Below, in pieces: positions 26,101 through 64,000 of a stretch of 64,000 nt of DNA (positions within the stretch are counted from its first letter, which is position 1; the number at the start of each line of letters is the position of its first letter). The DNA comes from Lampris incognitus (lineage: Eukaryota > Chordata > Actinopteri > Lampriformes > Lampridae). Where the stretch lies: positions 20,597,950 through 20,661,949 of the forward strand of contig NC_079214.1 in the NCBI RefSeq assembly GCF_029633865.1, in the 5' to 3' direction. Both the position numbers and the translations under genes were made by a program. A model generated the notes under the pieces. The model did not search any database and was not told the DNA's origin. It saw nothing but the letters and a program-made list of their open reading frames with translations.

Positions 26101-26160
26101 CACACACACATACATACATACACTCAAACACACACACATATATATATATATTTAAATATA

Positions 26161-27380
26161 CACTCACTGGCCACTTTATTAGGTACACCTTGCTAGTACC
26201 GGGTTGGACCCCCTTTTGCCTTCAGAACTGCCTTAATCCTTCGTGGCATAGATTCAACAAGGTACTGGAAACATTCCTCAGAGAGTTTGGTCCATATTGA
26301 CATGATAGCATCACGCAGTTGCTGCAGATTTGTCGGCTGCACATCCATGATGCGAATCTCCCGGTCCACCGCATCCCAAAGGTGCTCTATTGGATTGAGA
26401 TCTGGTGACTGTGGAGGCCATTTGAGTACAGTGAACTCATTGTCATGTTCAAGAAACCAGTCTGAGATGATTCGAGCTTTATGACATGGCGCGTTATCCT
26501 GCTGGAAGTAGCCATCAGAAGATGGGAACACTGTGGTCATAAAGGGATGGACATGGTCAGCAACAATACTCAGGTAGGCTGTGGCGTTGACACGATGCTC
26601 AATTGGTACTAAGGGGCCCAAAGTGTGCCAAGAAAATATCCCCCACACCATTACACCACCACCACCAGCCTGAACCGTTGATACAAGGCAGGATGGATCC
26701 ATGCTTTCATGTTGTTGACGCCAAATTCTGACCCTACCATCCGAATGTCACAGCAGAAATCAAGACTCATCAGACCAGGCAACGTTTTTCCAATCTTCTA
26801 TTGTCCAATTTTGGTGAGCCTGTGCGAATTGTAGCCTCAGTTTCCTATTCTTAGCTGACAGGAGTGGCACCCGGTGTGGTCTTCTGCTGCTGTAGCCCAT
26901 CTGCCTCAAGGTTCGACGTGTTGTGCATTCAGAGATGCTCTTCTGCATACCTCGGCTGTAATGAGTGGTTATTTGAGTTACTGTTGCCTTTCTGTCAGCT
27001 CGAACCAGTCTGGCCATTCTCCTCTGACCTCTGGCATCAACAAGGCATTTTCGCCCACAGAACTGCCGCTCACTGGATATTTTCTCTTTTTCGGACCATT
27101 CTCTGTAAACCCTAGAGATGGTTGTGCGTGAAAATCCCAGTAGATCAGCAGTTTCTGAAATACTCAGACCAGCCCGTCTGGCACCAACAACCATGCCACG
27201 TTCAAAGTCACTTAAATCACCTTTCTTCCCCATTCTGATGCTCGCTTTGAACTGCAGCAGATCGTCTTGACCATGTCTACATGCCTAAATGCATTGAGTT
27301 GCTGCCATGTGATTGGCTGATTAGAAATTTGCGTTAACGAGCAGTTGGACAGGTGTGCCTAATAAAGTGGCCGGTGAGTG
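26161..27380 (-). mobile_element. Tc1/mariner element, DD36E type, complete with TIRs (copy 1)
   Basis: A 1,220-bp element flanked by TA on both sides. Terminal inverted repeats of about 30 bp (26,161-26,190 and 27,351-27,380) share the core GGCCACTTTATTAGG and differ at two positions. It encodes a Tc1-like transposase on the minus strand (separate entry). It sits beside an (AC)n/(AT)n tract. A near-identical copy begins at 62,936. Confidence 0.95.
26193..27233 (-). pseudogene. Tc1-like transposase, two in-frame nonsense codons
   Basis: The reading frame is 346 codons plus stop, the usual Tc1 length, starting at the ATG at 27,231-27,233. The N-terminus has the paired helix-turn-helix DNA-binding region (FERGMVVGARRAG, LGFSRTTISRVYREW). 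The catalytic region follows: the first D in VAWSDES, the second in YFQQDNAPCH, and the E in SPDLNPIEHLW. I count 36 residues between the second D and the E, so the signature is DD36E rather than the classical DD34E. The frame is broken by TGA at 26,760-26,762 and TGA at 26,748-26,750. Copy 2 has CGA (Arg) at both places, so both look like CpG-to-TpG decay. No other break was seen. Confidence 0.92.
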
Positions 27381-29650: not shown

Positions 29651-31354
29651 CTACTCTTCCAACTCAGTTGACTTGGGTTTTGGCTCATGGATAGCAGATT
29701 CCATTCCAGGCAGAGTAGCTCTTCTCCGAGCAGCAGTCTCAATCTTCTGCACCAGCTCCACATCCCAGGTGTGGGTAACAAAGCTGAGCACCTCACCGCC
29801 TTCGACACTCCCCGCTCTCCCCACCCTCCCGGCCCTGTGGATGTAGTCTGTTTGAGATTCTGGGAAGTCATAGTTCACAACCAAACGGACCCTCGATGTG
29901 TCCAGGCCACGTGAAGCAATGTCAGTGCAGACAAGAACATCCACCATACCCTTCTGGAAGGAGTGATAGATCCCAGCCCGAAAAGCAGCAGGCATCGCCC
30001 CTTGCAGGCGAAGGTGTTGCACCCCCATTTCTCCCAGAGAGTAACCAAGCCAGTTCACAGTTGGCGCCTTGTTACAGAATACCAGCACACCAGTACCTTG
30101 ATTTTCTTGTTTGTGCAGCTTAAGTGTTTCGTAAAGCTCAAGGATTTTGTCGGCGCCTCTTACTTTCAGGAATGTCTGTTTGACATGGGGCATGAGGAAA
30201 TGTAGCATCTTGCTCTTGATAGTGAAAATGCTACCAAGATCGGTTACCTGGCTTAGAACTTCCCCCACACCCCCAGGGAAGGTGGCCCCCATCATCAGCA
30301 GCTGGGCTTTACGCCCAGGGCCTCGTGTTTCAGAGGGCTGACTGGCAACATGTATGCAGGATAGAATATTCTCTAACATAGCAGAAAAGCTAGGATCAAA
30401 CATGGTGTCAGCCTCATCTATCACCAGGAAGCTCAACTCACTCAGGTCCAGGCAGTTTCTCTTTAAGGCCTTTATAAGAGCACCAGGGGTGGCCACCAAA
30501 ATATCAGGGGGGAACTGTTTGAAAACATTCTTGATGTGGCCCACACCTCGCCCACCACCCACAGTCTTTGTCAGTATACCAAATGGGGCACACAGCGTCC
30601 TGGAAACAGCTGCCACCTGGTCAGCAAGTTCCCTGGAGGGCACAAGTATTACTGAACTAATTACATGTGCAGCGTCAGTTTCGTCTTCTGTTTCCTTTTG
30701 GGCCTGCAGTCTATGAACGATGGGCAGGAGATAACTCAATGTTTTGCCACTGCCCGTTTCAGCAGCACAAAGAATGTTTTTACCTTGCAAAACTTTTGGA
30801 ATAGTGCAAAGTTGCACCGTTGTTGGACATATGATATTCATACTGTTCAAAACCTCCAACAGCTCCTTGCAGATGTCTAGGTCGCGAAATGTCACAGTCT
30901 TCCTGTCTTCAACAATTTCCTCTTGTTGGTTTTCAGTAACAAACGGTGCTACAGTCTTTGTGCTATTGATGGCGAAATAATCACCATAAGACTTGTTATG
31001 CTTCCATCCTTTAGAGGAGAGGTGTGGCTGCTCAAACTTCCCAAGTATGTAGCCTGCAGACTGGTTCAGCTGAGGGTTCTTGCTCTGGATAAGGAGCTTG
31101 CCAGCCTTGATGGTACCGATTTTGTTTTTGCCTCGGATCTGCTTCACGTTTTCAACCCGCCTCTGCATATGACGTGGGATACGAATCACGACAGGCCCCT
31201 CAGAGGTTTGAGTCTGGCAACAACGAATTGGACCAACGGACACATGGGCACGAAACATGCCCGAAGCTTTCACAAGCCACGGAGAGTAAATATTCGTGGA
31301 CGGGATACTCCTCGACAAAACCACGGCCAAATAGCCGACCTTCATAGGATTCAT
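29651..31354 (-). CDS. ddx28: DDX28, mitochondrial DEAD-box RNA helicase (intronless)
   Basis: 567 codons in one uninterrupted frame; the human protein is about 540 residues and also comes from a single exon. Helicase motifs in order: Q-motif Gln near 181, Walker A AETGSGKT 198-205, Ia PSRELA 239-244, TPG 289-291, DEAD 313-316, GAT 356-358 (motif III, where most relatives have SAT), VFCN 425-428, TDIASRGLD 477-485, HRAGRVGRAG 506-515. The N-terminus is basic and nearly acid-free for about 50 residues, fitting a mitochondrial targeting peptide. DDX28 is known to work in mitochondrial RNA granules in assembly of the large mitoribosomal subunit. The ATG at 31,352-31,354 has A at -3; Met4 could also serve. 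Single-exon structure is normal for this gene, not a sign of retroposition, since the neighbour nfatc3 is syntenic. Confidence 0.96.
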   Translation of the reverse strand: MNPMKVGYLAVVLSRSIPSTNIYSPWLVKASGMFRAHVSVGPIRCCQTQTSEGPVVIRIPRHMQRRVENVKQIRGKNKIGTIKAGKLLIQSKNPQLNQSAGYILGKFEQPHLSSKGWKHNKSYGDYFAINSTKTVAPFVTENQQEEIVEDRKTVTFRDLDICKELLEVLNSMNIICPTTVQLCTIPKVLQGKNILCAAETGSGKTLSYLLPIVHRLQAQKETEDETDAAHVISSVILVPSRELADQVAAVSRTLCAPFGILTKTVGGGRGVGHIKNVFKQFPPDILVATPGALIKALKRNCLDLSELSFLVIDEADTMFDPSFSAMLENILSCIHVASQPSETRGPGRKAQLLMMGATFPGGVGEVLSQVTDLGSIFTIKSKMLHFLMPHVKQTFLKVRGADKILELYETLKLHKQENQGTGVLVFCNKAPTVNWLGYSLGEMGVQHLRLQGAMPAAFRAGIYHSFQKGMVDVLVCTDIASRGLDTSRVRLVVNYDFPESQTDYIHRAGRVGRAGSVEGGEVLSFVTHTWDVELVQKIETAARRRATLPGMESAIHEPKPKSTELEE

Positions 31355-31657: not shown

Positions 31658-32328
31658 CAGGCAGTGTTGGGTCTGCGAAAGAGAGAGTACAGACAAGTCA
31701 ATGAAATTATAATTTGTTAGGCTGGCTTTGGCGAAAGCAAACCTGTTCATCAAGAAAAGCTCAAACATTCCACCCTTGAAAATGCGAAATGAAGGACTAT
31801 TGTTTCTCCGTAGTGCGTGGGTTTGGGGCTGGTAAAATCTGATTCTGTAATAATATTTTGATACTATTTGCCACTACCATTATGAATTTGTGTCCTGCTT
31901 ACGTAAGGCAAAATATTTTTTTAAAGTGAATAAGATGTTCCTTAAGTAAAAATGCAAGTAAGCTGAGTTTTGGTGAGCTTGCCCGTCAGTATTCAACCCC
32001 TGGAACACCAATGCCTGATTTTTATAGGCCAGGAAAGCAATGAAACACAACACTGTCACCGACACCACAGCTGAATGTCAATAACTGTCAATGTGACTCC
32101 GAGCTCTGGTCAATCCCATTAATATTAATTGGATGAGCCCCGCACACTGTAATGCTTAAAATGACAACTTTGTCATTTTATGCATCACTTTCATGATGAC
32201 ACAACTGTCATTGCGAAAACTGTGTCATCGTCTAAGGCAGTGGATCATCTCAATTTGTCTGATTGCACCAAATCTTCATATATGATCACAGAGGCAGCAC
32301 ACGTCACAGGTTCCATCTATAATTTATC
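31658..32328. other. intergenic, nothing recognised
   Basis: AT-rich, with a short palindrome AAATGACA/TGTCATTT near 32,159-32,178. No exon recognised. Confidence 0.45.
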
Positions 32329-32332
32329 ATAC

Positions 32333-32489
32333 TGTAACGTGCATGGATAAAAAGACACGCTGGCCGTTGGCTCGCGGGTCTGACCCTTTAGTCGAGCGAT
32401 TAGCGATGCCTCCTGCGGTGCGGGCGACACGGGTTCGCTTCCCGGCCGCGGCAGTTCCTGTGGTTGCGTTGTCCCCCGAATTCGCTACA
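32333..32489 (+). repeat. TRIM 5' LTR with tRNA-like segment
   Basis: The A-box-like TAGTCGAGCG starts at 32,389 and the B-box-like GGTTCGCTTCC at 32,432, a spacing of about 42 bp, normal for a tRNA gene. It starts TGTAACG and ends GCTACA. It has a 7-bp insertion relative to the 3' LTR (about 32,363-32,369). Confidence 0.85.
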
Positions 32490-32490
32490 T

Positions 32491-32508
32491 TGGTGTCAGA
32501 AGTGGGAT
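32491..32508 (+). promoter_or_regulatory. primer-binding site, tRNA-Leu(CAA) type
   Basis: TGGTGTCAGAAGTGGGAT lies one base after the 5' LTR. TGG pairs with the CCA end, and the rest pairs with the acceptor/T-arm end of vertebrate tRNA-Leu(CAA), ...ATCCCACTTCTGACA as I recall it. Confidence 0.8.
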
Positions 32509-32591
32509 GGAGCGACCGTAAGGCCATCGGAAGCGTATGCGCCCTGAGGCGTGAAGGAGTTGATATGCTTAAGCGCGGGGACACGCTTCCC

Positions 32592-32603
32592 GAAGGAGGG
32601 GGG
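32592..32603 (+). promoter_or_regulatory. polypurine tract of the TRIM
   Basis: GAAGGAGGGGGG ends three bases before the 3' LTR, where plus-strand DNA synthesis would be primed. Confidence 0.8.
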
Positions 32604-32606
32604 TAG

Positions 32607-32756
32607 TGTAAAGTGAATGTATAAGAAGACACGCTGATTTGCGGATCTGACCCTTCAGTCGAGCGGTTAGCGATGCCTCCTGCGGTGCGGGCGTTACGGG
32701 TTCGCTTCCCAGCCGCGGCAGTTCCTATGGTTGCGTTGTCCCCCGAATGCGCTACA
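32607..32756 (+). repeat. TRIM 3' LTR with tRNA-like segment
   Basis: Matches the 5' LTR with about 14 substitutions and one 7-bp gap. A- and B-box motifs are both retained (GTCGAGCGGTTAG and GGGTTCGCTTCC). Confidence 0.85.
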
Positions 32757-32806
32757 ATACTGTCTTTATGCATACTCAATAATCCAGGTAAGGAAATCAC
32801 AAAAAA

Positions 32807-32906
32807 TTGAATCAGTTCATCTGGACACCACGTTTACTGAGCAAAACATTTCGTTTAGATGAGTGATGAGACGTTTCTCTCGTGGTGTCCAGATGAACTG
32901 ATTCAA
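32807..32906. repeat. perfect 26-bp inverted repeat with 48-nt loop
   Basis: Arms 32,807-32,832 (TTGAATCAGTTCATCTGGAC onward) and 32,881-32,906 are exact reverse complements. It starts 50 bp after the TRIM. It may be a tiny foldback transposon; no duplication was identified at its edges. Confidence 0.85.
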
Positions 32907-62451: not shown

Positions 62452-62935
62452 GGTACCTCATATTGCATTGCTAACACGTGTGGTTCAGCATGTTTGACCA
62501 ATGACATATGAGACAAGTTGAACGGCAACACACGGGGCTAGCCAACTAAACTTGCCAATTAGATCTGTTAGAAGCTGGGGTTTGATGTTCTACTACAGCC
62601 TGGCCATCTTCAATGTAACCCACACTGCCATCACTGTCCTCTTCATCTACACCACTTTTTTTGCCTTTGGCCAAAATGTGAGTGGGCAGAGTCGGTGTTT
62701 ACTTACTCTTTAATGGATGATTGCAGTTAACATGGATTTCATGAACAGTATGCCAAGCAATAAAATAAAAGTAAGCAAATACAATTTCAATCAGTCCTCG
62801 GTATTATGTAGTGGTTTTAATAAAGTTAAAGATATGTCTGACCTCTCGCTTCAAATTTAATCATTGGATATTGCCATCAAAAATCCTACTACCAGCTCAT
62901 TGCATTGCTGTTGTAAAGTTATTTATATATATATG
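62452..62935. other. intronic, nothing recognised
   Basis: No exon or repeat family recognised before the second Tc1-like copy. Confidence 0.45.
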
Positions 62936-64000
62936 CACTCACTGGCCACTTTATTAGGTACACCTTGCTAGTACCGGGTTGGACCCCCTTTTGCCTTCAG
63001 AACTGCCTTAATCCTTCGTGGCATAGATTCAACAAGGTACTGGAAACATTCCTTAGAGACTTTGGTCCATATTGACATGATAGCATCACGCAGTTGCTGC
63101 AGATTTGTCGGCTGCACATCCATGATGCGAATCTCCCGGTCCACCACATCCCAAAGGTGCTCTATTGGATTGAGATCTGGTGACTGTGGAGGCCATTTGA
63201 GTACAGTGACCTCATTGTCATGTTCAAGAAACCAGTCCGAGATGATTCGAGCTTTATGACATGGCGCGTTATCTGCTGGAAGTAGCCATCAGAAGATGGG
63301 AACACTGTGGTCATAAAGGGATGGACATGGTCAGCAACAATACTCAGATAGGCTGTGGCATTGACACGATGCTCAGTTGGTACTAAGGGGCCCAAAGTGT
63401 GCCAAGAAAATATCCCCCACACCATTACACCACCACCACCAGCCTGAACCGTTGATACAAGGCAGGATGGATCCATGCTTTCATGTTGTTGACGCCAAAT
63501 TCTGACCCTACCATCCGAATGTCGCAGCAGAAATCGTGACTCATCAGACCAGGCAACGTTTTTCCAATCTTCTATTGTCCAATTTTGGTGAGCCTGTGCG
63601 AAATGTAGCCTCAGTTTCCTGTTCTTAGCTGACAGGAGTGGCACCCGGTGTGGTCTTCTGCTACTGTAGCCCATCTGCCTCAAGGTTCAACGTGTTGTGC
63701 GTTCAGAGATGCTCTTCTGCATACCTCGGTTGTAATGAGTGGTTATTTGAGTTACTGTTGCCTTTCCGTCAGCTCGAACCAGTCTGGCCATTCTCCTCTG
63801 ACCTCTGGCATCAACAAGGCATTTTCGCCCACAGAACTGCCGCTCACTGGATATTTTCTCTTTTTCGGACCATTCTCTGTAAACCCTAGAGATGGTTGTG
63901 CGTGAAAATCCCACTAGATCAGCAGTTTCTGAAATACTCAGACCAGCCCGTCTGGCACCAACAACCATGCCACGTTCAAAGTCACTTAAATCACCTTTCT
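62936..64000 (-). mobile_element. Tc1/mariner element, DD36E type (copy 2, cut by window end)
   Basis: Nearly identical to the element at 26,161 and in the same orientation. Its left terminal repeat begins at 62,936; the usual flanking TA is TG here. The right end lies beyond the window. Confidence 0.93.
62968..64000 (-). pseudogene. Tc1-like transposase copy 2, one nonsense codon and one frameshift
   Basis: The DNA-binding half (63,968 down to 63,687, continuing past the window edge) ends at TGA, 63,687-63,689, where copy 1 has CGA. The catalytic half resumes at 63,683 and keeps SDESRFLLRHSDGR, but a one-base deletion near 63,272-63,274 (ATCTGC against ATCCTGC in copy 1) shifts the frame right at the second catalytic Asp. 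The start codon is outside the window. It is non-functional. Confidence 0.9.

Follow-up and report, generated by a model that had tools for sequence, protein, structure and literature searches.

The question raised by this locus is how a 424-bp element with a non-coding interior, whose LTRs carry motifs of a Pol III promoter, is transcribed, copied and inserted. The window, i.e., the whole stretch of 64,000 nucleotides that was analyzed (G000:C5:20597950-20661949), belongs to a genome of 1.48 Gb in 537 contigs. Sequence reading and alignment locate a complete TRIM on the forward strand at 32333-32756, flanked on the left (32329-32332) and on the right (32757-32760) by the duplication (TSD) ATAC. 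The 5' LTR (32333-32489, 157 bp, TGTAAC...GCTACA) contains both of two 7-bp units (CGCTGGC CGTTGGC), and the 3' LTR (32607-32756, 150 bp) is without one of them. The non-coding interior of 117 bp (32490-32606) carries the 18-base PBS word TGGTGTCAGAAGTGGGAT (32491-32508), which we take to be the complement of a tRNA-Leu 3' end, and closes with the polypurine tract (PPT) GAAGGAGGGGGGTAG (32592-32606). Within the 5' LTR lie an A-box-like motif (TAGTCGAGCGA, 32389-32399) and a B-box-like motif (GTTCGCTTC, 32433-32441), each with one mismatch to the consensuses TRGYNNARNNG and GWTCRANNC; the 3' LTR has CAGTCGAGCGG at 32656-32666, placed by alignment with the 5' LTR, and again GTTCGCTTC at 32700-32708. 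An earlier note on this DNA had described a complete TRIM with these LTR lengths, this interior, PBS, PPT and ATAC duplication, all of which is borne out. The A and B boxes that it placed in each LTR are present as well, with their starts 44 bp apart and not, as given there, 42 bp.

The element is a member of a published kind, Helenus, and not a new class. Helenus elements are TRIMs below about 1 kb with two LTRs and a non-coding interior, a PPT before the 3' LTR and the animal-type 4-bp TSD, and the window copy has each of these. The name, which the earlier note gave, fits, and the note's remark that few such families are described in animals is out of date, as the main text of Kojima (2024, PMC10886601) reports Helenus from six animal phyla, fish included. 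Families related to LTR-11_DR are described there from Cypriniformes, a catfish and milkfish, and in zebrafish 5575 Helenus LTRs were counted and tandem arrays are also known. These fish families are TRIMs with tRNA-like LTR sequence containing A and B boxes, PBS, PPT, 4-bp TSDs, thousands of LTRs and tandem arrays, in all of which they resemble the present family, a likeness that rests on the published description and not on the LTR-11_DR sequence. Primer tRNAs of vertebrate Helenus include Leu, and Gypsy elements were proposed as mobilizers of animal Helenus based on PBS similarity (PMC10886601). In difference to the present analysis, that paper was not found to name a Gypsy partner for the fish families, and its main text does not mention a hairpin, chimeras, asymmetry, co-packaging or template switch. 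In the open-licence PMC literature no paper besides Kojima's was found to name Helenus or LTR-11_DR.

In the same genome at least 44 matches extend over nearly the whole element, and 40 of 4709 first-look candidates were scored. This first sample consists of the loci L001-L040 from the match list, L001 being the window copy. The order LTR-interior-LTR was found in 40 of 40 loci and an exact 4-bp TSD in 32, the window copy included; four further loci have TSDs with one base different and four with two. Among the 32 exact TSDs, 19 are ATAT and 11 are ATAC, and the ends TG..CA are constant in the family. As matches are nearly full-length, the order is kept throughout and 32 of 40 TSDs are exact, the element is not a chance arrangement; the search for further copies which the earlier note proposed has thus come out in its favor, with the same order and boundaries kept. 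A 29-base interior word, allowing up to two mismatches, matches 1419 times genome-wide and not once in the control. Between the two LTRs of the window copy there are 15 substitutions over 150 aligned sites (K2P 0.108), besides differences in length; set against a mean within-copy difference of 4.4% over 40 loci, among them the window copy itself, this would make the copy rather old, if LTR difference reflects age at all. Three-LTR arrays are present in four of the 40 loci, with exact outer TSDs in L010 and L017 and outer TSDs that are not exact in L023 and L034. At G000:C15:5879301-5908159, several of the matches to the LTR head are spaced 2650 bases apart, i.e., this is a tandem array containing a Helenus LTR.

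Judging from the boxes, the TRIM is most likely transcribed by RNA polymerase III. Of 84 aligned LTRs, 77 have an A box without mismatch and 79 a B box within one mismatch of its consensus. TTTT, the stop signal of Pol III, occurs inside only one of 40 copies, as a Pol III template requires. No tRNA was called by ARAGORN in the whole window, and a search of 32200-32900 against Rfam returned only two sub-threshold matches, neither of them a tRNA, so that from the proposed check for a tRNA and for Pol III boxes the boxes were recovered and the tRNA was not. By its motifs the putative promoter region of the LTR is tRNA-like and not a tRNA gene. Together with order, boundaries and TSDs, the boxes support the earlier proposal of LTR-type replication combined with a SINE-like promoter motif in the LTRs. 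We regard it as rather unlikely that the transcript is instead one of RNA polymerase II from a TATA-like word near LTR position 15, with the A and B boxes being relics or structural. This alternative draws on the presence, in 67 of 84 aligned LTRs, of such a word (GATAAGAA or GATAAGTA) about 40 bp upstream of the A box. It draws also on the A-box strand being an arm of a hairpin that recurs in the family, so that the strand could be conserved even if it were no promoter. It has to be weighed against the preservation of both boxes and the scarcity of TTTT, and against the plant TRIM Cassandra, which is of the same design and yields Pol III transcripts (PMC10886601).

In this hairpin, which is strong, the stretch before the A box is predicted to pair with the A-box stretch. 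In the 5' LTR of the window copy, where the hairpin is weaker, folding places it approximately at 32353-32411, with the upstream arm pairing with the A-box region. Pair counts were made on 30 of 197 LTR pieces, chosen to be mutually less than 90% alike; by eye the same fold is seen in most of the 30, with L080, L101, L106 and L116 as exceptions. The hairpin cells are paired in 88.0% as compared with 86.3% after shuffling (a value reached by 0 of 500 shuffles), the covariation score is 0.153 vs. 0.131 (2 of 500), and cells changed on both sides number 14 vs. 8.3 (22 of 500). No excess was found for hairpin pairs with both sides changed (5 vs. 4.3; 221 of 500) or for further pair types (24 vs. 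23.1; 199 of 500). The pair counts back the putative hairpin moderately, and the covariation is suggestive and does not amount to proof. The LTR form with one 7-bp unit corresponds to a deletion of part of the upstream arm. Conserved hairpin folds are reported also for Cassandra (PMC7215508).

The PBS word was found behind LTR ends other than the usual Helenus end at 408 places, and at none in the control. Thirty of these loci were examined and many turned out to be Helenus relatives with changed ends. Four of the 30 (L045, L061, L066, and L068; longer stretches L071-L074) carry a Gypsy-type element of about 5.7 kb. Its LTR has about 378 bp (TGTGGCGAATTC...ACGTCACA), and its first 22 interior bases, identical in L071-L074, are those with which the Helenus interior begins (32490-32511 in the window copy). 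Its purine tract CAAGGAAGGGGGCAG is similar to the Helenus PPT, and its insertion sites are similar too, with ATAT-rich flanks. A second LTR lies about 5 kb downstream in L071, L073 and L074; in L072 the match to a second LTR is limited to 69 bp. Separate open reading frames of L074 match the Pfam families of aspartyl protease, reverse transcriptase, RNase H, H2C2 and rve integrase in Gypsy order. With predicted protease, reverse transcriptase, RNase H and integrase following in this order between LTRs, the element, a likely partner of Helenus, can be assigned to Ty3/Gypsy. A second LTR family (L075, L076, and L077) has the same PBS word behind an LTR end CGCCACA followed by C. As one LTR of this type is joined to a Helenus interior (L077), the Gypsy partner named here may not be the only one. 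In L044, L053 and L069 (longer stretches L081-L083) the same PBS word stands behind other LTR-like ends.

The two families are joined to each other in hybrids. The end of the partner LTR is followed directly by the Helenus interior at 18 exact junctions genome-wide, as compared with 0 in the control. A partner LTR was identified at the join in 12 of 14 examined junction loci, in full length in six of them, with fewer than 12 independent events to be counted since some of the loci are alike (the interiors of L127, L129 and L130 are 96-99% identical). Two candidates were discarded, L124 as a mutated Helenus LTR end and L134 because it matches no partner LTR. The reverse join, from Helenus LTR to partner interior, was found four times (control 0), one of these at the already counted L132. 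L127 and L128 consist of a partner LTR, the Helenus interior and a Helenus LTR, which in L127 is internally shortened. In L079 a partner LTR is followed by Helenus interior, the start of a Helenus LTR, the integrase region of the partner (98% identical to that of L072) and the partner PPT and LTR, the whole being flanked by ATAT. L137 contains a second Helenus interior. In L135 and L136 an inverted LTR end of subfamily S1 stands head-to-head with an LTR end of subfamily S2, which is joined at the PBS to partner interior; they were also considered as self-primed foldback palindromes, which was rejected as their arms come from different subfamilies, S1 inverted and S2 direct. Of the six hybrids in which both outer ends can be read, four have exact TSDs (GTAT in L078, ATAT in L079 and L128, ATAC in L127), which is not decisive alone as TSDs are drawn from few motifs, and two (L080 and L131) have TSDs with one base different. 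From the motif counts it is estimated that unrelated insertions match in their TSDs by chance in about a quarter to half of cases. In L080 and L126 partner interior stands before a partner LTR part whose start is near LTR position 257-262; this point might be the 5' end of the partner RNA.

In textbook reverse transcription both LTRs of a new insertion are alike, an expectation that is also found in the literature (PMC1950507). In 26 of 40 copies of the first sample, among them the window copy, two 7-bp units (CGCTGGC) stand in the left LTR and a single one in the right, and in 13 of 40 both LTRs have two units; in L031 the gap in the right LTR is larger, and in none of the 40 copies is the unit missing from the left LTR. 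As this sample is biased, its copies having been chosen by similarity to the two/one-unit window copy, the 26:0 cannot be sign-tested. Private decay of the window copy as the source of its 157/150-bp difference was rejected, the same 7 bases being missing in 26 of 40 copies. A second sample comprised 40 places from C1 that match the interior exactly, taken in the order listed and leaving aside near-tandem places and loci included before; both LTRs score as Helenus in 31 of the 40, with an exact TSD in 17 of these 31 and a one-mismatch TSD in five more. Twenty-one of the 31 copies are two/two, six are two/one and four are unscorable, two of these on the left; the exact 7-bp loss on the left was found in none of the 31, and for 6:0 the sign test yields P = 0.03. 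The right LTR of L115, unscorable in the state table, is of the one-unit form by a search of LTR heads after the PPT, in which 18 one-unit heads stand directly after the PPT. A count by the word ending CGCTGGCT (142 places) proved unusable, as two-unit LTRs with one C-to-T change match as well (seen in L037 and L103). In five of the 31 copies the two LTRs belong to two subfamilies, with an exact TSD in L093 and L115 and no exact TSD in the other three; since an S1-type interior was required, this sample may favor recombinants.

Given this sequence evidence, we consider it quite probable that a Helenus-type TRIM with a Pol III RNA is copied and inserted by the enzymes of the Gypsy element of about 5.7 kb, with transfers between molecules. 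RNA polymerase III would transcribe the TRIM from the boxes of the 5' LTR, and the RNA would enter the virus-like particle of the Gypsy-type element, as the recombinants suggest. There, a host tRNA would prime at the PBS, the Gypsy reverse transcriptase would copy the TRIM and the Gypsy integrase would insert it, mostly at RTAY sites and with a 4-bp duplication. Several RNAs per particle would allow for frequent strand transfers between molecules, with the PBS, identical in Helenus and the partner, as a frequent crossing point, and products would arise with a Helenus LTR on the right and, on the left, an LTR of the Gypsy element or of a different Helenus subfamily. The hybrids are of the kind expected from strand transfers between co-packaged RNAs. 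As textbook reverse transcription leads to like LTRs, unlike pairs call for transfers between molecules, and the one-sided 7-bp loss calls for an error in a step that touches the right LTR only. One possibility, for which the samples give the polarity and the step is a guess, is that the last-made plus strand copies a single strand folded into the hairpin. Were the RNA to start beside the A box, U3 would include the 7-bp unit, and parents without the unit in the right LTR would be expected to have offspring without it in either LTR; no such copy is among the 31 of the second sample, which speaks against the proposed mechanism. It is with reserve, and as a possibility somewhat doubtful in its full extent, that we put forward the wider reading: that in this family commonly neither LTR of an insertion is a copy of the other, that plus-strand transfer between cDNAs (Helenus-Helenus or Helenus-Gypsy, at the shared PBS) would be a regular route, and that the right LTR recurrently loses the 7-bp hairpin repeat in the last synthesis step.

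It is unlikely that the TRIM was moved by Gypsy machinery as proposed and that the hybrids and unlike LTRs arose only after insertion, by ectopic recombination or gene conversion. In favor of this reading are the three-LTR arrays, and those of the form A-B-B fit unequal crossing-over; with uniform 4-bp sites, TSD-like matches can be accidental, and three of the five two-subfamily copies are without an exact TSD. The complex structures L078, L133 and L137 could in part be due to recombination after insertion. However, the joins lie precisely at the border of LTR and PBS, where no more than 22 bases are common to the two families, and full partner LTRs begin at the canonical TGTG after RTAY flanks (L078, L127, L128, and L131). 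The reverse junctions and products of three templates (L135 and L136, with inverted S1, S2 and partner interior) argue in the same direction, and undirected conversion does not predict a one-sided 7-bp loss. Copying by reverse transcription with transfers between molecules is preferred also over the view that the 157/150 difference is a marker amplified by DNA-level duplication from one source with unlike LTRs, which we judge very improbable. In line with that view identical 7 bases are missing each time, but flanks and TSDs differ between copies, and other minor LTR variants are common to both LTRs of a copy in 45 cases, compared with a mean of 18.2 and a maximum of 29 in 500 shuffles of the LTR pairing; based on these differences and shared variants, the copies went through reverse-transcription cycles of their own. 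The tandemly duplicated tRNA SINE, which the earlier note named as the reading that would overturn its own, has the tRNA-like boxes and the missing coding capacity on its side and can practically be dismissed, as SINEs insert without LTRs or a fixed 4-bp integrase-type duplication, while the copies here keep their order and boundaries with constant TG..CA ends, have PBS and PPT in place, mostly carry exact TSDs and form hybrids with Gypsy.

Among known systems, Cassandra resembles the Helenus element in having a Pol III promoter inside its LTRs and in forming tandem arrays, and differs in being derived from 5S rRNA and in belonging to plants, with no indication of an autonomous partner given in the main text of Kojima (2024, PMC10886601). 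Complex LTR retrotransposons of the Triticeae are likewise flanked by TSDs and were attributed by Sabot and Schulman (2007, PMC1950507) to template switches among RNAs packaged together; these are large elements with outer LTRs that are alike, in contrast to the hybrids between a TRIM and Gypsy described here, several of which have unlike outer LTRs. Among open-licence PMC titles on chimeric or template-switched LTR elements none was found on a TRIM-Gypsy hybrid. The autonomous mover of a TRIM is often deduced only from sequence similarity, e.g., a shared PBS, and the hybrids, cut at the PBS and partly flanked by TSDs, point to a specific and testable Gypsy partner in the same genome. That the LTRs differ on one side runs counter to the textbook expectation and matters both for dating by LTRs and for how reverse transcription proceeds. 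If the wider reading is true, such TRIMs record which RNAs share a particle and the order of the reverse-transcription steps, and LTR divergence is not simply usable for dating them.

In the neighborhood of the TRIM, an open reading frame of 567 amino acids with DEAD and Helicase_C domains lies on the reverse strand at 29651-31354; this DEAD-box helicase is consistent with DDX28, the gene that the earlier note had named as a neighbor. Two copies of a Tc1/mariner-type element, 98% identical, are located at 26145-27226 and 62920-64000, and Tc3-like HTH and DDE domains are found in open reading frames of the copy at 26145-27226. Just after the TRIM there is a perfect 20-bp inverted repeat (32813-32832 and 32881-32900) with a loop of 48 bp, which has a sub-threshold Rfam match to MIR1878 and is perhaps a small MITE-like repeat.
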